Below are positions 11,137 to 22,112 of a stretch of DNA of 42,376 bases, piece after piece (the stretch's first letter is position 1; every line of letters begins with the position of its first letter). The stretch spans positions 1-42,376 of the forward strand of contig JAKBCS010000031.1 of assembly GCA_021807595.1 (NCBI GenBank), in the 5' to 3' direction. The position numbers and the translations under genes are program-made. The DNA is from Planctomycetota bacterium (GTDB lineage: Bacteria; Planctomycetota; Planctomycetia; Gemmatales; Gemmataceae). The notes under the pieces were generated by a model. It saw only the letters and a list, made by a program, of their open reading frames with translations, searched no databases and had not been told where the DNA came from.

Positions 11137-12221
11137 ACGGACGTTTATTGTCTCTCTTGTTCGCCGGCTCGATCTTCTGCGCCGGCCTCGTTCTTGCGCA
11201 AGATCCGCCCGGCGAGCAGGATCAGCCGCCGGCGCGTTTGAAGAAAAAGAAGCCGCGCGACGACGACAAACCGACCAAGACCGACGAGACGAAAAAAGAC
11301 GATAAAAAAGGTGACAAAAAGGATGAAAAGAAGGTCGAGCAGCCCGAACCGGAGCCGGTCACTCCGCAAGAGGAAGAGAAGGAAGTGCTTCAGCGCGTGG
11401 TGAAGAACGTCCACACCGTCGGCGACCGCCTGGCCAAAAACGACCTAGGCGAAGCCACCCTGCAAAGCCAGCGAGACATTCTGAAAGATCTGGAATCGCT
11501 CATCCAGCGAAATGAGAATCCCGAAAGCGGCGGGGGCGGAGGAGGAGGCGGCGGAGGGGGCGGAGGCGATCAACAAGATCAGAACAATGATAACAACAAC
11601 GGCGGCGGGGGTCAGAACGACAAGAATCAACGAGGCGGTTCGGGAGCCGAGGGCGGAAAACAAGGGCAGAATCCACAAGGCGGTGGCTCGAGTGGAGGAG
11701 GGAAACAAGGAGGCGGCAAATCGAATGGCAAATCGGGAAAAGGCGGCAAAGCCCAGGGTTCCTCCGAATCGGGCGGCAGCGGCAAGTCCGGCGGCAGCGG
11801 CAAAACCCAGGGAGCGGGCGGAGAGAATGGCTCCGGAACGAAATCGGGATCGGGAACGCGAGCGGGATCGGGCAAGTCCGGCAGCGGTAAAGAAGGCAAC
11901 GGCGACAAGCCGGGTGGCAAAAACGGCAAGGGAGGCAACGGCGACAAGCCGGGTGGCAAAAACGGCAAGGGAGGCAACGGCGACAAGCCGGGTGGCAAAA
12001 ACGGCAAGGGAGGCAACGGCGAAGGAGGGGGTGGACCAGACGACCGCACCCGCGACAAAAGCGCCGATCAATACAAAGATATTTGGGGGCATCTCCCGGA
12101 AACGCTTCGCGCTCGGATGGATGCCTACTCGAATCCACAGCCGTTCATGCCCAAATACGACGAACTGATTAAGCGTTACTACCGCACCATCGCCGAACAG
12201 GGACGCCGAAAAGGAGAGTGA
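11133..12221 (+). CDS. Secreted low-complexity Gly/Lys/Asn-rich protein
   Basis: A 362-residue exported protein: signal peptide at residues 1-22 (ending VLAQ), a Lys/Asp-rich segment (about 30-80), a helical segment EEEKEVLQRVVKNVHTVGDR (about 85-105) running to the IQRNEN region, then about 180 residues of Gly with Lys, Ser, Asn and Gln, and finally an ordered C-terminus containing DIWGHLPETLRARMDAYS. The Gly-rich part includes a 13-residue unit repeated three times. The C-terminal motif WGHLPxxxR-x-M resembles the ends of other planctomycete proteins of this neighbourhood type. The start overlaps the upstream stop (ATGA) and has AAGGAG 8 nt before it. The disordered middle may be a flexible spacer across the periplasm; that is inference. 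Confidence 0.82.
   Translation: MNGRLLSLLFAGSIFCAGLVLAQDPPGEQDQPPARLKKKKPRDDDKPTKTDETKKDDKKGDKKDEKKVEQPEPEPVTPQEEEKEVLQRVVKNVHTVGDRLAKNDLGEATLQSQRDILKDLESLIQRNENPESGGGGGGGGGGGGGDQQDQNNDNNNGGGGQNDKNQRGGSGAEGGKQGQNPQGGGSSGGGKQGGGKSNGKSGKGGKAQGSSESGGSGKSGGSGKTQGAGGENGSGTKSGSGTRAGSGKSGSGKEGNGDKPGGKNGKGGNGDKPGGKNGKGGNGDKPGGKNGKGGNGEGGGGPDDRTRDKSADQYKDIWGHLPETLRARMDAYSNPQPFMPKYDELIKRYYRTIAEQGRRKGE
11895..12011 (+). repeat. Three tandem 39-bp repeats inside the Gly-rich gene
   Basis: Three identical 39-bp copies start at 11895, 11934 and 11973, with a fourth partial copy after 12011. Each encodes GNGDKPGGKNGKG. Identity at the nucleotide level, synonymous sites included, points to recent slippage or unequal exchange, so copy number may differ between strains. 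The unit is a multiple of three and keeps the frame. Confidence 0.95.
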
Positions 12222-13370: not shown

Positions 13371-15494
13371 CTACGATCGCGAGCCGAGCAAAATCACGGC
13401 CGAACGGGGCGACATGATATAGTGATCCGACGGTTTCAGGACTACGGCTTCGCGTTCCTCTACGATGTCCTCCGGCGACGACAGACTGGTATCGACCAAG
13501 CGTTTCCAGTGGCCGTGACACATCGGCAGTTTGAAGTGCTGGCTCTCCCAATGCGAATTGAAAATGACATATAAATCGGGATGAGCGTGCCCGCGGCGCA
13601 AGTGAAAGGCTAACGTGCGCGAGTGCCCGGTCCAATCCGGCTCGCCAACTTTGACACCGTGCCAATCGACGCGGTCCACAAATTGTTCTCGGCTCAGTGT
13701 GAAGTAATTCTTGCGGAGAGCAATCATCATTCGGGTGAAGCGTGTAAGCCCCGCGTTTTTCTTCAACAGCGTCCAATCGACCCAAGAAATCTCATTGTCT
13801 TGACAGTAGGCATTATTGTTGCCGCGCTGGGTGCGCGCGAACTCGTCGCCCATGAGGAGAAACGGAACCCCCTGCGAAATCAGCAACATGGTGAAATAAT
13901 TGCGCATCTGCCGCTGGCGCACGGCATTGATAGACTCGTTGTCGGTCGGTCCTTCGTGGCCGTAGTTGCAACAGTATCCTGCGTCCCAGCCGTCGCGGTT
14001 GTTTTCCCCGTTGGCTTCGTTGTGTTTACCGTTGTAGCCGACGAGATCGTGCATCGTGAAGCCGTCGTGGCAGGTGATGAAATTGACGGAATGATTGGAC
14101 GGGCGAGCGGCATCGCCGTAGAGATCGAGACTTCCACAAATCCGCTTGGCGACACATGCGGTGGCTCCAGCATCGCCGCGAATGAATCGGCGCACGTCGT
14201 CGCGGAACATGCCGTTTAGCTCGGCCCAACGGCCCCAACTGGGAAACTTGCCCATGCGCGACAGCCCCGCAGCGTCCCACGCCTCGGCGATCAATTTCAC
14301 TCCGGACAGCAGCGGATGTTCGGCGATGTGATGGAGGAGTGGAGGATCGTCGAGGACTTGACCGTTCGCTCCGCGCGAGAGAATGGCGGCGAGATCGAAG
14401 CGGAAGCCGTCGACGTGCATCTCCGTTACCCACTCGACTAGACTATCGAGGATGTGATCGCGCACGAGGGGATGATTGCAGTGGAATGTGTTGCCGCAGC
14501 CGGAGAAATTATAATAGCGTCCCTCCTTGTCCAGCAAATAGTATTGCGAGTTGTCCAATCCGCGATAGCTGAGCGTAGGACCGTTCTCGTTGCCTTCGGC
14601 AGTGTGGTTGTAGACCACGTCGAGAATGATTTCGAATCCCGCCTTATGAAACGCCCTGACCATCTCCTTGAACTCGCGCACCTGTTGGCCCGCGACGGCT
14701 GCATAAGCGGCCTTGGGAGCGAAAAAAGACAAGGGCGAGTAGCCCCAATAATTGAACAGGATTTCTCCCGTCGACGGATTGCGGCGCGCGTGTTCGAACT
14801 CGTCGAACTCGAACACCGGCATCAGTTGTACCGCCGTCACGCCGAGCGATTTCAAGTAAGGGATCTTCTCGATCAACCCCAGATAAGTGCCGGGACGATC
14901 GACGCCAGCCGAATCGTGCCGGGTGAAGCCGCGCACATGCAGTTCGTAGACAATAGTGTGCGACATGGGAGTTCGGGGCGGCATATCGCCTTGCCAATCG
15001 AAATGACTCTCCACAATGCGACTGCGGCGCGTCAACCGTGCGGAGGGCTGACCGGGCGGCGTGTCGTATCGACCCCAACAACTATTGCCGCTCAGCGCGC
15101 GGGCATAGGGATCGAGTACCACCACCGACGGATCGAACCGATGCCCAGACTTCGGCGCGTTGGGGCCGTCCACGCGATAGCCGTAGAGATAGTCGGTACG
15201 CAGATTCTGTACGAAGATGTGCCAGACATCGCCGGTTCTATTCGTGGCGGGATCGAGTGGGATCTCGGCGATGGGTTCTTCGCGCCCCTCGCGGAATAGT
15301 ACCAATCGAACGGCCTGTGCGTGGCGTGCGAAAACGGCAAAGTTGACGCCATCGGCTTGTGGCGTAGCGCCAAAAGGACGACAACAACCGCGCCGCGTCG
15401 AAAATCGCGGAGTCGGTGGAGCCAGCCTCGAAGCCGACAGACTTTGCCCGCGCTCTTGTTTCAGTAGCGAAGATACGGTGACTTGGCCGAGCAT
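13371..15494 (-). CDS. glgX: Glycogen debranching protein GlgX
   Basis: A GH13 debranching enzyme that hydrolyses alpha-1,6 branches of (limit-dextrin) glycogen in the cytoplasm. An N-terminal CBM48-like domain (GATPQADGVNFAVFARHA, residues 42-59) precedes the catalytic barrel with the motifs DVVYNHTAEGN (292-302), GFRFDLAA with nucleophile Asp367, LIAEAWD with acid Glu404 and NFITCHDGF with Asp477. Total length 707 residues, usual for the family. The reading frame stays open far upstream to 16355, but that part overlaps the GH57 gene and lacks homology; the ATG at 15494 was chosen, with the ATG at 15569 as an alternative. Ribosome sites are weak at both. It ends 30 bp from the convergent toroid-protein gene and is probably the last gene of the alpha-glucan block. 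Confidence 0.93.
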   Translation of the reverse strand: MLGQVTVSSLLKQERGQSLSASRLAPPTPRFSTRRGCCRPFGATPQADGVNFAVFARHAQAVRLVLFREGREEPIAEIPLDPATNRTGDVWHIFVQNLRTDYLYGYRVDGPNAPKSGHRFDPSVVVLDPYARALSGNSCWGRYDTPPGQPSARLTRRSRIVESHFDWQGDMPPRTPMSHTIVYELHVRGFTRHDSAGVDRPGTYLGLIEKIPYLKSLGVTAVQLMPVFEFDEFEHARRNPSTGEILFNYWGYSPLSFFAPKAAYAAVAGQQVREFKEMVRAFHKAGFEIILDVVYNHTAEGNENGPTLSYRGLDNSQYYLLDKEGRYYNFSGCGNTFHCNHPLVRDHILDSLVEWVTEMHVDGFRFDLAAILSRGANGQVLDDPPLLHHIAEHPLLSGVKLIAEAWDAAGLSRMGKFPSWGRWAELNGMFRDDVRRFIRGDAGATACVAKRICGSLDLYGDAARPSNHSVNFITCHDGFTMHDLVGYNGKHNEANGENNRDGWDAGYCCNYGHEGPTDNESINAVRQRQMRNYFTMLLISQGVPFLLMGDEFARTQRGNNNAYCQDNEISWVDWTLLKKNAGLTRFTRMMIALRKNYFTLSREQFVDRVDWHGVKVGEPDWTGHSRTLAFHLRRGHAHPDLYVIFNSHWESQHFKLPMCHGHWKRLVDTSLSSPEDIVEEREAVVLKPSDHYIMSPRSAVILLGSRS

Positions 15495-15856: not shown

Positions 15857-17446
15857 CTATTCGGAAGCGAACAGCTGATAATCGAGTTTGGGAAAGATTG
15901 CATCCATGTATTCGAGCGCTTGCAGGCTCGCGGCATCGATTTCGCGCCGGTCGAGGCGCGTCAGCAGATCGTGGAAGCGATGGAGATGCTCGTGAAAGCG
16001 CCGTTTGGCGTATTGCTCGGTGGTGCCATTCGTGATGATGAACGGCCAATCGGAGGCTTGGGCCAACATCAATTCCCGTCCCGCCTGGCGCAGCGCGCGA
16101 TCTTCGACACTTCCCAGCGAGACGAAAGGCCGTTCGCGCACCGTTTGCCTCATACGCGCGGCCGCTTCGTGCAACGGTCGCCACATCCATTCGGTTTTCG
16201 GATTGACCCAATGTTCGCTGTAGCCGTTGCGTCCCCAACTGCTCGCCGACGGCATGGACTTTTGCTGCACCGGATAGGCGTTGAGGTAAGCGGCCGGCGT
16301 GGACATTTCCAGGTCGCCTCCCGACGCCAATTCGCGGAGGACGTGATAGATCCATTGCGGGCCTTCAAACCACCAATGACCGAATAACTCGGCGTCGTAG
16401 GGAGATACGATGACGGCGGGAAACGGCATGCCGCCGCCGGCGCGGCGCGCTTGCTCGCGGCAGCGCTGGGCGAAATCGCGCGCGTGCCGCCGCGCCGTCT
16501 CCTCGCTCCAGTCGGGATTATAAAGAGCTTTATGATCCGTTTTGCCCGTGATGCGATGGTACTTAATGCCGGTGTTTTGACGGATGCCGGGGGCGTATTG
16601 GTAGGGTGCGAGATACGTCTGATCGAGATCGAAGCCGATGTCGCGGTAGTATTCGCGATAATTGGGATCGGCTGGGTAGCCTACGCTGGTACTCCAGACG
16701 AGTTTGGAAGTCATGGCATGACGGCCGAAGGCGGCCACGCCGGACGGACAATAGACCGGAGCGTGAACGCCGAACTGCGGCGCGGGTTCGGCATGTTCGA
16801 TACCGTGCCCGTCCACCAGAAAATAGCGTATGCCGGCTTGGGCCAATACTTCGTCCAGTCCGGGATAATACGCGCATTCGGGAATCCACATGCCCTTGGG
16901 CTTGAGGCCGAAAATGCGCGCGTGTTCGTCCACAGCGGTGAAGATCTGCGCCTTGACGGCGGCCGGCTCGGCGTTCAGGAGAGGCAGATAGCCGTGCGTA
17001 CCGGCGCAGGTAATCAATTCCAGATTGCCGGACTCGGCGTACTGCTGAAAAGCCGACACCAACCGCGTGCCGCAGCGATCGACGAAGATCGACCGCGCCT
17101 CCTCGAACAAACGGCGATACATCTGAGCCAAGGCGTGAACGTCCGGCCAATCCTTGGTCCGCTCGCACTCCTTCTCGGCCAGTTGCAACGACAGATCGAG
17201 ATGGCGGAGACAGCGCTGGCGCAGCAGCGCGTCTTCCATCATGTTCGCCAAGGTCGGCGACACGGACAGCGTCAATTGGAAGGGGACGTTCTCCGCTTTC
17301 AGCCGGTCGAAAAACTTGATGAGAGGAATGTACGTCTCGGAGACGGCCTCGAAGAACCAGCGCTCTTCCAGAAACCGCTCGTGTTCTGGATGGCGGACGT
17401 AGGGCAAGTGGGCGTGCAACACCAACAACAGGCAACCGTTCGGCAT
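15857..17446 (-). CDS. GH57 alpha-glucan branching-type enzyme (DUF1957 C-terminal domain)
   Basis: A 529-residue cytoplasmic GH57 enzyme of the 1,4-alpha-glucan branching type, which would cut an alpha-1,4 chain and re-attach it by an alpha-1,6 bond. Family motifs are visible: HAHLPYVRHPEH (11-22), GTHGYLPLL (149-157), GMWIPECAYYPG with nucleophile Glu190, and SPYDAELFGHWWF with acid Asp351. The C-terminal helical part (DUF1957-like) follows, with the tryptophans of SASSWGRNGYSEHWV. Length fits the branching-enzyme branch and not the shorter amylopullulanases. The ATG at 17446 has GAGGAG 6 nt upstream; the frame continues 5' to 17563 into the preceding gene. Its place among three GT4 genes and glgX supports a role in glycogen-like polymer synthesis. 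Confidence 0.92.
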   Translation of the reverse strand: MPNGCLLLVLHAHLPYVRHPEHERFLEERWFFEAVSETYIPLIKFFDRLKAENVPFQLTLSVSPTLANMMEDALLRQRCLRHLDLSLQLAEKECERTKDWPDVHALAQMYRRLFEEARSIFVDRCGTRLVSAFQQYAESGNLELITCAGTHGYLPLLNAEPAAVKAQIFTAVDEHARIFGLKPKGMWIPECAYYPGLDEVLAQAGIRYFLVDGHGIEHAEPAPQFGVHAPVYCPSGVAAFGRHAMTSKLVWSTSVGYPADPNYREYYRDIGFDLDQTYLAPYQYAPGIRQNTGIKYHRITGKTDHKALYNPDWSEETARRHARDFAQRCREQARRAGGGMPFPAVIVSPYDAELFGHWWFEGPQWIYHVLRELASGGDLEMSTPAAYLNAYPVQQKSMPSASSWGRNGYSEHWVNPKTEWMWRPLHEAAARMRQTVRERPFVSLGSVEDRALRQAGRELMLAQASDWPFIITNGTTEQYAKRRFHEHLHRFHDLLTRLDRREIDAASLQALEYMDAIFPKLDYQLFASE

Positions 17447-17543: not shown

Positions 17544-18983
17544 TCATTCACGAGCGGGGACACCCATCAGCTGTTCGATTTGCTCGGCGACATTGTTCCA
17601 CCCGAAGCGTTCTTCGAGTTTATCGTGTCCCTTTCGGCCTAGGGAGACGCGGAGGTCGGCGTCGTACAGCAGACGTTCGATGCCCCAGACCAAGCTTTGC
17701 TCGACGGAATAGACGAGCAGGCTGTCCTTTTCGTGTTCGAGCAATCCCGGCGCGGCCTGGTGGGTGGCGACGACGGGGCGTTGGGCGGCCCAGGCGGCTT
17801 GAATGGGCCACCACGGCGTCGCCTCGCGGCTCGGCGCGGCCACGATGTCGGCGGCTTCGATTAGTTCGTGCAACGCTTGGCCGACGACGCTGCCAGGGAA
17901 ACGAATGGCATGATCGAGCAAGAGATAGCGCGAGTAGACGCGCAGCGTCCAATAGGTCGCCCCGTCGCCGACGAGGATTAGCCGCGCCTGCGGATGGTTC
18001 CGCAACACGACCGGCATCGCCTTGACTAGAAGATCCGGACCGTAACGCTCGCTAAAGTCGCCAACGAAGAGAATCGTCGGATCGATGGGACCTACTTGAT
18101 AGCGGGCTTTGATTTGTCCGGCGTCGATTGAGGGCGCGAACTGTTCGACGGGAAACGGTTGGCGAGCGGTGGTTACTCGCGCGGCACACTCCGGAACCCA
18201 GAAACGTGCCACCTCGACCACGGACGGCTCCTGCGCCAGGATCACTTGCGCCTCGTGTAGAGCGTTCATCTCGATTTCGTTGATGCGCTTGCTGATGTCG
18301 GAGGTCATGTCGCTGCGTTGACGCTCTAACGAACTCAGCGCGAAAATCGTCCGGTTGTTTTTCAGTCCCCGCAGCAAGCTGAGCGCTCCCGCGCCGGACC
18401 ACTCGTAGCCCATGAGGGTAACATGCGGACTGCCGCCGGGAAATTGGTGCAAGAAGGCGTTGGCGGCTCGGCTGGTGTATTCTTGGACGCGGGCGGCCAG
18501 ATCGTCGCCTTCTATTTCGCCCACCGGATGTTCGTGCAGATCGGGAATCGTCGAGCCGGAGGAAATCGGTGCGAATAGATGAACGGAGATTTGCCGCCGC
18601 GCCAAAGCGGTGACGGCCTTGAGAACGGATTGACCGATGGGAGTGTTGGGAGGCTCCCAACAGAACACGGCGAGGACGGGACGAGCATCGTCGGGCGCGA
18701 GGGCGGGTGTCTCGATCCGAGCCGGCGGAGTGATCCGCTTCATTCTTCGTTTATCTCGCTTCACTCGCGTTCCGTTGCGCGTAGTTTGGCCGTTTGGGAC
18801 GGGGCCTCCGTTCTCCGTGCTACGGCCGATGTCACTCGAATGTCCATTATCCGCGATGACTCCATTATCGGTCGTGGAGCGGCGGTTGGCAAGCGCCCTG
18901 CCGATTTCTTCGGCAGCGAGGACGCTGGCGGGGCGGTCGGTAGGTAAAAGGGTTGGCTCGCCGTTAAGGTTTCTCGGAATCAT
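17544..18983 (-). CDS. GT4-like glycosyltransferase, probably catalytically degenerate
   Basis: A 479-residue GT-B fold protein, third GT4 paralogue of the block. Residues 1-100 are low-complexity with repeated Asn-Gly pairs and a basic patch (VKRDKRRMKR), then the GT-B part begins at about residue 102. In the C-terminal domain the line DPTILFVGDFSERYGPDLL aligns with DPTVLFVGRMVVQKGPDIL of the first paralogue. The phosphate-binding Arg and Lys are replaced by Asp309 and Tyr314, and the E-x7-E motif reads PSREATPWWPIQAAW with Gln at the second Glu position. The first domain is also short on the usual substrate loops (GQSVLKAV instead of GGVGVHVTEL). The start ATG at 18983 has GAGGAG 8 nt upstream. 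I infer a regulatory or structural partner rather than an active enzyme; altered activity cannot be excluded. Confidence 0.85.
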   Translation of the reverse strand: MIPRNLNGEPTLLPTDRPASVLAAEEIGRALANRRSTTDNGVIADNGHSSDIGRSTENGGPVPNGQTTRNGTRVKRDKRRMKRITPPARIETPALAPDDARPVLAVFCWEPPNTPIGQSVLKAVTALARRQISVHLFAPISSGSTIPDLHEHPVGEIEGDDLAARVQEYTSRAANAFLHQFPGGSPHVTLMGYEWSGAGALSLLRGLKNNRTIFALSSLERQRSDMTSDISKRINEIEMNALHEAQVILAQEPSVVEVARFWVPECAARVTTARQPFPVEQFAPSIDAGQIKARYQVGPIDPTILFVGDFSERYGPDLLVKAMPVVLRNHPQARLILVGDGATYWTLRVYSRYLLLDHAIRFPGSVVGQALHELIEAADIVAAPSREATPWWPIQAAWAAQRPVVATHQAAPGLLEHEKDSLLVYSVEQSLVWGIERLLYDADLRVSLGRKGHDKLEERFGWNNVAEQIEQLMGVPARE

Positions 18984-19022
18984 GGGGAGTTCTCCTCTCG
19001 CCGGTCTGCCGGCATCCGCTCG

Positions 19023-20846
19023 CTAGAGCCTCGTCCTCGTCAAATCGGGAAATCGTTCGGCACACAGTTCCAGATACAGCTGGGCTACGTCGCTCCAGTT
19101 CCGTATCGAACCTTCGTGCCTTTGGCCGTTGCGCCCCATCCGTTCGGTATGCGTTGCATCGCTGAGCAGGCGATCCAGCGCCCAGACCATCGATCCGGGA
19201 TTGTCGTAAGTAAGCAGACCGTTCACTTCGTGGCGAATCAAATACGCGGGCCCGCCGTGGGTAGTGACGACGGCCCGGCCGGCCTTGCGGGCCAAATCGA
19301 CGACGGCGTCGTCGAAAGGTAGCCGGCAGCGGGATGGCAGGATCATTGCCTCGGCGGCACGAACGAGGCGCGTCACCTGCGGGCCTTCGCGGTGTCCCAA
19401 CAGACGCACGGCGAAGGCGATGCCGAGCTGGTGCGCGCGATGTTCGAGCGAACCGTGAAGACTACCCGCGCCGACGAACGCCAGACGCAGATTGCCGTGC
19501 CGACGAAGCGCCGCCGGCAATGCTTCAACCAACAGATCGACCCCGGCCGCATGTTCCAACGGGCCGACGTAGAGGATCAAGCGATCGAGGGGGCCGACGC
19601 CAATTTCCCCCTTGACGTGTCCGTAATCGAGCGGGCAGTCCCATTCGTTAGCGAGGCGTCCCTCCATCGGAAAGGAACAGACGCGCGCATCGTCCACGCC
19701 CAATTCGGCGGCGAGGCTATCCCGCAACCATTCCGGCGTGAGAATGCAAGGCATCGGCCGGGCGACGCTACGCTCGGCCTCTTCGACGGCGCGCGACTGC
19801 GGAACGGGTGTCGCGCCGTTGCGCCGCGTCGATTCCAGGGAGGTCAGCGACAAGACCCGCGGCAGACGCGACCTCGAGCCGATGAACCCCGTCTGCCATT
19901 CGTGGTGGTGCAACAGATCGAACGGAGGCGCTTGGGCCAGATGCTCTTCGAGGCGGCGTGCAAAGGCCTGCGCCGCTGCTATCGGCGAACCGTTGGTGCG
20001 CAGCGGCACCGTATGGTAGCGAACGCCTTCCTCGATCCGAACCGGCTGAGCCGTATCGGCAGCGGTGAAGATATGGATTTCGTGTCCCAGCTCCCGTTGG
20101 CATCGGCTCAGTTCGCGGACGAATGCGGGCTGCTGTCCGTCTTCGCCTTTGAAGGTGAAATAGGCAATACGCAAGCCTTGGCGCAGCCTCGGCCGGCGCA
20201 TTTCGCGGAGAAAACGCTCTTGTTCCCAGACGTTGCCCGCCGGCTCGATCCGCCCGCGTTCGTCCACATAGAGGGCATCGTGCGAGCGCTGGGACGACCA
20301 TCGATCTCTTCCGAAGGACGCGCTTCCCGAGCGCGCGGCGGGTAAGAATTCACCGCTGCGGAGGAGGAAGCCGACCTCGGCGATTTGCGTGGTGCCGGCG
20401 CGAGGCAGCTGAAAGAAACGCTGCCCGCACAGACTCGGCAGCGTCTCGTCTTGAATGCGATGGGCGTTGAATCCCGTAAATTGGATATAAGAGACATCGT
20501 AAAGGCGCACGACGAGTCGGCAGTTTTGCCAAGTCGCGCCGCGCCGGCGGGCGGTTTCGTCCACCCATTCTTGTCGGATGCGCCAGTGAACGAACCCCTG
20601 CGTTGGCGCGACCGCGGCAAGCCCGGCATGATTTACTTTGGGGACGAAGGGTTCCGCCGCGCTCCGTTCGCCGATTTCCCAGGCGAGGCGACGCAGCGAC
20701 TCGGCGTCGAGGGGAGACGTTGCCGTCGTCGGCAACTCCCTCTCCGCCTGCGACGAGGCGACTTCTTCATCCCAGCAAAGGGGTGCAGGCGAGACGCATT
20801 CGATGAAACTTAGGCTGGGGTTATCCATGAGATTTTGAGCATCCAT
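19023..20846 (-). CDS. DUF4912-GT4 fusion protein, GT part probably inactive
   Basis: A 607-residue two-part protein. Residues about 84-181 match DUF4912: RLVVRLYDVSYIQFTGFNAH, then a QRFFQLPRAGTTQIAEVGF segment and GEFLPAARSGSASF. From about 224 a GT4 GT-B domain follows (LRIAYFTFKGEDGQQPAFVR, FDLLHHHEWQTGF). In its C-terminal half the line LILYVGPLEHAAGVDLL has Pro429 and Ala434 where the active paralogue has Arg and Lys, and the E-x7-E region reads PSRCRLPFDDAVVD, lacking the first Glu and with Asp517 near the second. DUF4912 is known beside GH57 branching-enzyme genes in several phyla. The start is uncertain: ATG 20846 or ATG 20828, neither with a good ribosome site; a GTG at 20918 would place the start inside an inverted repeat. 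Confidence 0.85.
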   Translation of the reverse strand: MDAQNLMDNPSLSFIECVSPAPLCWDEEVASSQAERELPTTATSPLDAESLRRLAWEIGERSAAEPFVPKVNHAGLAAVAPTQGFVHWRIRQEWVDETARRRGATWQNCRLVVRLYDVSYIQFTGFNAHRIQDETLPSLCGQRFFQLPRAGTTQIAEVGFLLRSGEFLPAARSGSASFGRDRWSSQRSHDALYVDERGRIEPAGNVWEQERFLREMRRPRLRQGLRIAYFTFKGEDGQQPAFVRELSRCQRELGHEIHIFTAADTAQPVRIEEGVRYHTVPLRTNGSPIAAAQAFARRLEEHLAQAPPFDLLHHHEWQTGFIGSRSRLPRVLSLTSLESTRRNGATPVPQSRAVEEAERSVARPMPCILTPEWLRDSLAAELGVDDARVCSFPMEGRLANEWDCPLDYGHVKGEIGVGPLDRLILYVGPLEHAAGVDLLVEALPAALRRHGNLRLAFVGAGSLHGSLEHRAHQLGIAFAVRLLGHREGPQVTRLVRAAEAMILPSRCRLPFDDAVVDLARKAGRAVVTTHGGPAYLIRHEVNGLLTYDNPGSMVWALDRLLSDATHTERMGRNGQRHEGSIRNWSDVAQLYLELCAERFPDLTRTRL

Positions 20847-20874
20847 TCTAAGAGGATGAAAAGCGGGCTTTTCT

Positions 20875-20924
20875 GTCGGCGTGCCGCGCCGGCAAGAGGT
20901 TCCTTGCCTGCGTGGCACGCCGAC
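20875..20924. terminator. Imperfect inverted repeat between the first and second GT4 genes
   Basis: GTCGGCGTGCC (20875-20885) pairs with GGCACGCCGAC (20914-20924), and inside it GGCAAG (20891-20896) pairs with CTTGCC (20903-20908) around a 6-nt loop, with symmetric 5-nt internal bulges. The total stem is about 17 bp. On the minus strand it lies 24 bp after the first GT4 stop, is followed by AGAAAAGCCCGCTTTT, and ends about 29 bp before the second gene's start. It can act as a partial terminator lowering expression of the two degenerate paralogues, or stabilise the upstream message. Confidence 0.5.
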
Positions 20925-20948
20925 ACGTCCAAAATCGGGTAACGCCGT

Positions 20949-22112
20949 TTAGGCGACGCTGGCATAGACGGCTTCGGTCTGTCCGGCGATGCGATCCCAG
21001 CTGAAGGCCGCTTCGACGGCGGCACGGCCGTTGTGCCCCATCCAGTTGCAGCGGCCATGATCGGCGAGCATCGTGCCCAAACCCCAGGCTACCGAATCCG
21101 GCGTATCGTCCACTTGCAGACCGTTGACGCCATGCCAAACGAACTCGGCGGGGCCGCCGCGCTTGGTACTCACGACCGGCTTGCACGCCGACCAGCCTTC
21201 GAGAATGACAATGCCAAACGGTTCGTTGCGGCTCGGCACCGCCACCACGTCGCACGCCTTGAACAGATCGTGCAGTTCTCGACCGCGGCGGTCGCCGAGG
21301 ATGCGCAACGCACCGGCCACCCCCAGGTGATGGGCCAATCCGCACACCTCGTTTCGCATGTGCCCATCCCCGGCAAAGACGAACTTGACATTGGGATAGA
21401 AGCGGAGAACATGCGGCATGGCTCGAACGAGAATGTCCGGCCCTTTTTGTACGACCATGCGGCCGACGAAGAGGACGGTGGGATCGAGCGGCCCGATGGC
21501 ATAGCGGCGTTTGACATCGCCGGCGTCAATCGAGTAATCGAACGTGCGGGCATTGACGCCGTTGTAAACGACGGCGGTTTTGTGATCGGGACATTGATAC
21601 AGCCAACGAATTTCGTCGCGGAGTTGATTGGACACGGTGATGACGCGATCGGCGCAGTAGGTTCCGTGGCGTTCGTGGTCTTGGATGCGCGGAGATTGTC
21701 CTCCGAAAAATTGGTTGCCGTTGCGACCGTACTCCGTCGAGTGCATGGTTAGCACCGCCTTGCGTCCTCGGCCATCTTTGATCCACACCAGAGCGTTGGA
21801 GGCCAGCCAATCGTGCGCATGCACGATGTCGAACCGGCCGATATGATCTTCCACGGCGCTAAACTCGTGGACGAAAGCTCGGCACATATTATTTATTTCA
21901 TCGACAAAGTTGGGATTGAGCGGAAAGCTACAACGATGATAGTGAACGCCGTCGATGCGGTCGTAGGGAGGCTGTTGCTGTCCCCGACGGGTGAAAATGT
22001 GGACTTCATGGCCGCGACGATCGAGGGCCGCAGCCAACTCCGTCACATGGACTCCCACTCCACCGACGGCGATGCCGTGCAGCGCCTCCCACGAAAACAA
22101 AGCAATCTTCAC
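20949..22112 (-). CDS. GT4 glycosyltransferase, glycogen-synthase-like (intact catalytic residues)
   Basis: A 387-residue retaining GT-B enzyme of family GT4, probably extending an alpha-glucan chain from a nucleotide sugar. The N-terminal glycine loop GGVGVHVTELAAAL (17-30) and HAHDW (98-102) belong to the acceptor side. In the donor side Arg218 and Lys223 in VGRMVVQKGPD bind the diphosphate, and PSRNEPFGIVILEG carries the E-x7-E pair Glu297/Glu305. The start is a GTG at 22112 with TTGGAG upstream. It is the first gene of the minus-strand alpha-glucan block (then DUF4912-GT4, GT4, GH57, GlgX). Exact donor (UDP- or ADP-glucose) cannot be read from sequence, and a role in another polysaccharide is the main alternative. 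Confidence 0.88.
   Translation of the reverse strand: MKIALFSWEALHGIAVGGVGVHVTELAAALDRRGHEVHIFTRRGQQQPPYDRIDGVHYHRCSFPLNPNFVDEINNMCRAFVHEFSAVEDHIGRFDIVHAHDWLASNALVWIKDGRGRKAVLTMHSTEYGRNGNQFFGGQSPRIQDHERHGTYCADRVITVSNQLRDEIRWLYQCPDHKTAVVYNGVNARTFDYSIDAGDVKRRYAIGPLDPTVLFVGRMVVQKGPDILVRAMPHVLRFYPNVKFVFAGDGHMRNEVCGLAHHLGVAGALRILGDRRGRELHDLFKACDVVAVPSRNEPFGIVILEGWSACKPVVSTKRGGPAEFVWHGVNGLQVDDTPDSVAWGLGTMLADHGRCNWMGHNGRAAVEAAFSWDRIAGQTEAVYASVA

Follow-up and report, generated by a model that had tools for sequence, protein, structure and literature searches.

The locus described here raises the question of why two glycosyltransferase-like proteins that lack the catalytic residues of their family should be encoded between an intact paralogue and a glycogen branching enzyme. 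The window, i.e. the whole analysed stretch of DNA, comprises 42,376 nucleotides of contig JAKBCS010000031.1 from a planctomycete of the Gemmataceae. The first-pass annotation had placed three family GT4 open reading frames here and listed their key residues; the frames were confirmed, and the residue numbers for genes A, B (counted from the ATG at 20846) and C proved exact in alignment. The features are collected in Table 1.

Table 1. Genes of the trio locus and an associated gene of related loci. Positions refer to the window unless a locus is named.
Feature	Position	Strand	Description
Gene A	20949..22112	-	GT4, GT-B glycosyltransferase; 387 aa; GTG start with GGAG ahead
Gene B	19023..20846	-	DUF4912 and degenerate GT4; 607 aa from ATG 20846
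Gene B, alternative start	GTG 20918	-	631-aa reading
DUF4912 domain (PF16258) of gene B	20289..20621	-	
Gene C	17544..18983	-	degenerate GT4; 479 aa
Gene D	15857..17446	-	GH57 1,4-alpha-glucan branching enzyme with BE_C domain
Gene E	13371..15494	-	GlgX glycogen debranching enzyme; start uncertain, ATG 15494 one candidate
~490-aa gene with HMHQP motif	L041 4343-5812		
~490-aa gene with HMHQP motif	L042 10110-11564		
~490-aa gene with HMHQP motif	L088 16304-17773		
~490-aa gene with HMHQP motif	L089 8925-10394		

The five genes A to E run in one direction on the minus strand with short gaps between them (102 bases between A and B, 39 between B and C, and 97 between C and D). Stretches of the GGAG/AGGAG type precede A, C and D, and no terminator-like site was found in the A-B, B-C and C-D gaps. 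Gene D could be aligned from end to end with the Thermotoga maritima structure 2b5d (480 bits) with retention of the Glu and Asp motifs, which we take to be catalytic from general knowledge of GH57. Gene E scored 689.7 bits as GlgX against a cut-off of 640.9. A search with defence-system models gave no matches. Farther along the window, positions 11627-12058 encode a low-complexity protein stretch of repeated GKNGKGGNGDKPGG units.

Gene A matches GT4 in Pfam along its whole length and contains Gly17-Gly18, His124, Arg218, Lys223, Glu297 and Glu305. The last five residues align with identical catalytic residues of MshA (3c48) and BshA (5d00), the solved structures closest to A. These two enzymes, however, act in thiol biosynthesis and have no link to glucans, unlike the trio locus. 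The Arg, Lys, E-x7-E and His of an active GT4 enzyme are present in A of all eight genomes that carry the trio, and are retained by every A-like gene of the phylum except one. It should be mentioned that in G227, a distant planctomycete, a second A-like GT4 gene (L070 8356-9549) keeps Arg and Lys, and shows Asp for Glu297, Ser for Glu305 and Asn for His; this gene is possibly a separate degenerating copy.

The best curated model for A is GlgM/GlgA_Coryne (TIGR02149), a GT4 model of glycogen metabolism, but the score of 155.7 bits lies below the cut-off of 302.4, and the GlgM-type gene of the genome is located elsewhere (489.1 bits with the same model). The GT5 GlgA model (TIGR02095) gave 70.7 bits against 328.45. 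An assignment of A as GlgM or GlgA was rejected on these scores, together with the separate GlgM and GlgE of the genome. Ten proteins, among them three from the block itself, were scanned for the neighbourhood of A-type genes outside the trio clade, and gave no consistent link to glycogen.

B and C are paralogues of A. When the whole genome was searched with A, they were the top matches (E values of 1e-42 and 4e-42), and the next GT4 protein followed at 2.5e-22. In profile-profile comparison, the three align over ~360 columns that cover both Rossmann domains (probabilities of 100, 100 and 99.9), and they have in common a stretch of the form VK..Y..GP.DP.ILFVG ahead of the donor site. The tandem paralogy proposed in the first-pass annotation is thus borne out. 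The GT-B fold is recognised by Pfam in both domains of A and B; in C, Pfam recognises the C-terminal domain and does not recognise the N-terminal one, and the full-length assignment comes from the profile comparison with A. The first ~95 residues of C (window 18700-18983) form a leader rich in Asn, Gly and Thr, which is probably disordered. A similar leader is found within the own genus and is absent in G004. AlphaFold2 models from six-row alignments (pLDDT of 48.9 for B and 44.7 for C) were too weak to serve as evidence.

The residues that bind the donor phosphate and support catalysis in A are replaced in B and C by other, often invariant residues. In B, the Arg and Lys positions are occupied by Pro429 and Ala434 (Pro453 and Ala458 in the longer reading from the GTG); in C, they are occupied by Asp309 and Tyr314. 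All eight B orthologues show Thr or Ser for His, Pro for Arg, Ala for Lys, Arg for Glu297, and Leu, or Asp depending on the alignment, for Glu305. C has Asp for Arg and Tyr or His for Lys in eight of eight, and both Glu297 and Glu305 are lost. Neither Arg nor Lys is therefore retained in any of the eight B or eight C proteins, and neither protein has an E-x7-E. An incomplete E-x7-E had been noted earlier in C, but the Glu in question lies one position off and is not conserved among the orthologues. The N-terminal glycine pair is absent in C and mostly absent in B. Some features persist: B has a conserved Asp near the position of the second Glu, and five of the seven C orthologues still have the catalytic His. 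The replacement residues are themselves conserved, namely DDAVVDLARKAGR in B and, in place of the lost Glu297/Glu305 region of C, a TPWWPIQAAWAA-like motif.

Some 38 further GT4-like stretches of the own genome and its order were inspected as a control at the same five positions. Lys and the second Glu are retained in almost every one, and so the loss of Arg, Lys and both Glu together is exceptional for GT4; it was seen only in B, C and the lone C relative in G050 (L015). In the latter genome, a stand-alone C-related C-terminal glycosyltransferase domain without catalytic residues (L101 798-1379) was observed, and no A, B or D was found alongside. B and C are very probably catalytically dead. 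The claim of one intact and two dead paralogues, made from the window, is strongly supported by the orthologues, since the losses are common to all eight trio genomes. The term "pseudo-glycosyltransferase" used in that claim is less suitable, because it already names VldE, an active enzyme (PMC3441724); "non-catalytic GT4 paralogue" seems to be the better term.

A search of 102 genomes of the order gave B and C in four species of the own genus and in two other genera, with only the C fragment of G050 in a third. Among 392 genomes across the phylum, only A-type matches were obtained apart from the trio of the window itself; orthologues of A thus occur elsewhere in the phylum without B and C. 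When 397 genomes of the class were searched with the C profile, a single further genome was gained, G622 from another family, with match coordinates equal to those of the Pirellulales locus L088. A scan of named genomes, all metagenome-assembled, gave seven planctomycete loci, two of which are from Pirellulales. Including the window, eight genomes, which represent at least four genera, carry the trio. The adjacency and order of A, B and C are identical in all eight, and GH57 and then GlgX follow in each of the seven genomes in which the contig continues; in G037, the contig ends inside C. Four genomes have a conserved gene of ~490 residues between the branching enzyme and GlgX (Table 1), with a GH57-like HMHQP motif and no Pfam match at 1e-5. 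This gene is absent from the own genus, where L040 retains only a remnant-like match of 40 residues.

Alignment of orthologous blocks had been set beforehand as a test of whether B and C are merely recent losses. Intact B or C orthologues in most genomes were not seen. Because the losses in B and C are common to eight of eight genomes, in each of which A is complete, they are ancestral rather than the result of recent decay. Maximum-likelihood analysis placed the 8 rows of B and the 7 rows of C in one clade each (support of 100/100), and the two clades are sisters at 100/99 on long stems, which argues that the catalytic loss is old. The simplest reading of these sequences would be that an A-like gene was duplicated, that catalysis was lost, and that a second duplication followed. 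The pairing of B with C is itself unsafe to some degree owing to the long branches, and the exact point at which the pair joins the A tree is left aside, since the outgroups also attach by long branches.

B and C are under purifying selection. In five genome pairs (Nei-Gojobori), dN/dS was 0.01-0.07 in A, 0.04-0.11 in D, 0.07-0.21 in B and 0.13-0.20 in C. The proteins B and C change more quickly than A, yet at the protein level far more slowly than neutral sequence. Conservation is higher in the C-terminal than in the N-terminal domain, both in B (0.70 versus 0.50) and in C (0.62 versus 0.50). Among the A orthologues, 86 positions are invariant; every B retains 30 of these and every C retains 25, many being Gly, Pro and Asp of the fold, whereas Arg218, Lys223, Glu297, Gly300 and Glu305 are among those lost in both. 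It is scarcely credible, then, that B and C are functionless tandem copies in decay. Their faster evolution and the stand-alone C-like fragment of G050 would agree with such a fate, but the frames remain open in eight genomes down to ~45-55% identity, the dN/dS values are well under 1, and the conservation already contradicts decay.

The neighbourhood points to alpha-glucan metabolism. GlgC, GlgP and GlgE are present in the own genus, where a GT5 GlgA above the cut-off is absent in three of four species and is cut by a contig end in the fourth; G004 and G033 have GT5 GlgA and no GlgE. The trio thus occurs alongside each of the two glycogen routes. GlgE/GlgM (G000, G037-G039) and GT5 GlgA (G004, G033) appear to be used as alternatives by related genera, and the trio is kept with both. 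In the two Pirellulales, L088 and L089, the block includes or is directly followed by a UDP-glucose pyrophosphorylase (UDPGP) gene, which in L088 is placed between C and GH57; UDPGP was not found in the own genome. In G004, glgC is on the same contig as the trio, ~5 kb past GlgX. These linkages point to a role with alpha-glucans and to a donor of the nucleotide-glucose type, for which the UDPGP gene gives no more than a hint of UDP-glucose. Of the earlier proposal that the trio takes part in alpha-glucan synthesis, the "alpha-glucan" part is supported by the GH57 and GlgX genes linked to the trio wherever the contig is long enough. The "synthase" function proposed for A, which is not GlgA and falls below the GlgM/GlgA_Coryne cut-off, is plausible but inferred, and so is the "control or scaffold" function proposed for B and C.

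The first-pass annotation did not include the DUF4912 domain (PF16258) carried by B. Sequence comparison of this domain gave no relative of solved structure, and a literature search gave no paper tying it to glycogen. In G227, a GH57 branching enzyme likewise carries DUF4912, fused at its N-terminus (L082 1186-3354). This fusion fits the idea that B might act as an adaptor toward the branching enzyme.

B and C probably persist as partners without catalytic activity or as subunits that bind glucan. Three features make such a role the likeliest: their origin from an A-like gene, their constant position beside A, and the retained fold. With moderate confidence, the locus may be described as an alpha-glucan operon in which a working GT4 enzyme, A, is accompanied by ancient dead paralogues retained as non-enzymatic subunits. 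A would transfer glucose from a nucleotide-glucose donor, elongating or priming an alpha-1,4-glucan. B and C, which would be incapable of the usual nucleotide-sugar binding, might take the place of a second A subunit as binding partners of A, and might keep the growing glucan or the branching enzyme nearby, B through its DUF4912. They could thus be partners in a hetero-oligomer, holders of the glucan, or an adaptor from A to the branching enzyme. The stricter proposal that the active enzyme works only with two dedicated dead GT4 subunits, one of them bearing DUF4912 as a module that binds glucan or branching enzyme, is tentative and somewhat doubtful.

Two further explanations should be weighed against the subunit role. 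B and C might bind glucan and serve as sensors or regulators within the locus, acting for instance on the branching or debranching enzyme, and form no complex with A. The DUF4912 of B, found elsewhere on a GH57 branching enzyme, would suit such a function, as would the faster divergence of the acceptor-side N-terminal domains compared with the C-terminal ones and the fact that A orthologues elsewhere in the phylum manage alone. This is rather unlikely, however: B and C come from an A-like gene and adjoin A in eight of eight genomes, and several GT4 enzymes form dimers, so that pairing would be the simplest route. It is still less probable that B or C, or both, are active with an altered donor or chemistry through their conserved substitutes. 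The substitutes Asp-Asp-Ala-Val-Val-Asp in B and Trp-Trp-Pro-Ile-Gln in C, the acidic residues of B near the Glu305 position and the His kept by C in most species could be read in this way, but the donor-phosphate Arg and Lys and both Glu were lost together, a combination that occurs in none of the ~38 control stretches except a relative of C.

STARCH SYNTHASE 5 of plants belongs to family GT5. It is a non-enzymatic starch synthase that acts in granule initiation and binds MRC (PMC10801857). As proposed for B and C, it is a non-catalytic paralogue of a GT-B alpha-glucan synthase, and its role is non-enzymatic initiation of the polymer; unlike this MRC-binding protein of plant plastids, B and C are bacterial GT4 proteins, with two dead copies per operon, one with DUF4912. 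In the accessory Sec loci, GtfA transfers the sugar and GtfB is an acceptor-binding chaperone (PMC6973325), so that neighbouring glycosyltransferase genes include one that transfers and one that assists, as is proposed for the trio. That pair, however, serves protein O-GlcNAc transfer via DUF1975, whereas the trio adjoins the glycogen enzymes GH57 and GlgX; DUF1975, which marks the GtfA/GtfB complex together with a serine-rich-repeat substrate locus, was not among the Pfam matches of the trio locus, which is not a GtfA/GtfB locus. These two systems are the nearest analogues, and since STARCH SYNTHASE 5 and GtfB exist, non-catalytic glycosyltransferase relatives are already known as a kind. The archaeal glycogen loci resemble the present one in having a GT4 gene beside GH57 alpha-glucan genes, but the GT4 genes there are single and no dead paralogues are described (PMC11046441). 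A literature search on pseudoenzyme GT-B proteins gave no matches, and in the literature searched, which included few subscription papers, no description was found of the bacterial alpha-glucan setting, the two dead copies or the DUF4912 fusion.

The start and shaping of bacterial glycogen particles are poorly understood, and what GT4 proteins do in certain glycogen loci is an acknowledged gap: a recent review states that their function in the archaeal loci still has to be clarified (PMC11046441). In the present operon, which is conserved, a branching enzyme is accompanied by one live and two dead synthase-like proteins; this offers a directly testable case of non-catalytic glucan-synthase subunits in bacteria, and the locus gives DUF4912 a first functional context. 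If the dependence of A on its two dead paralogues were true, the trio would be a bacterial counterpart, of separate origin, of the plant starch initiation machinery.
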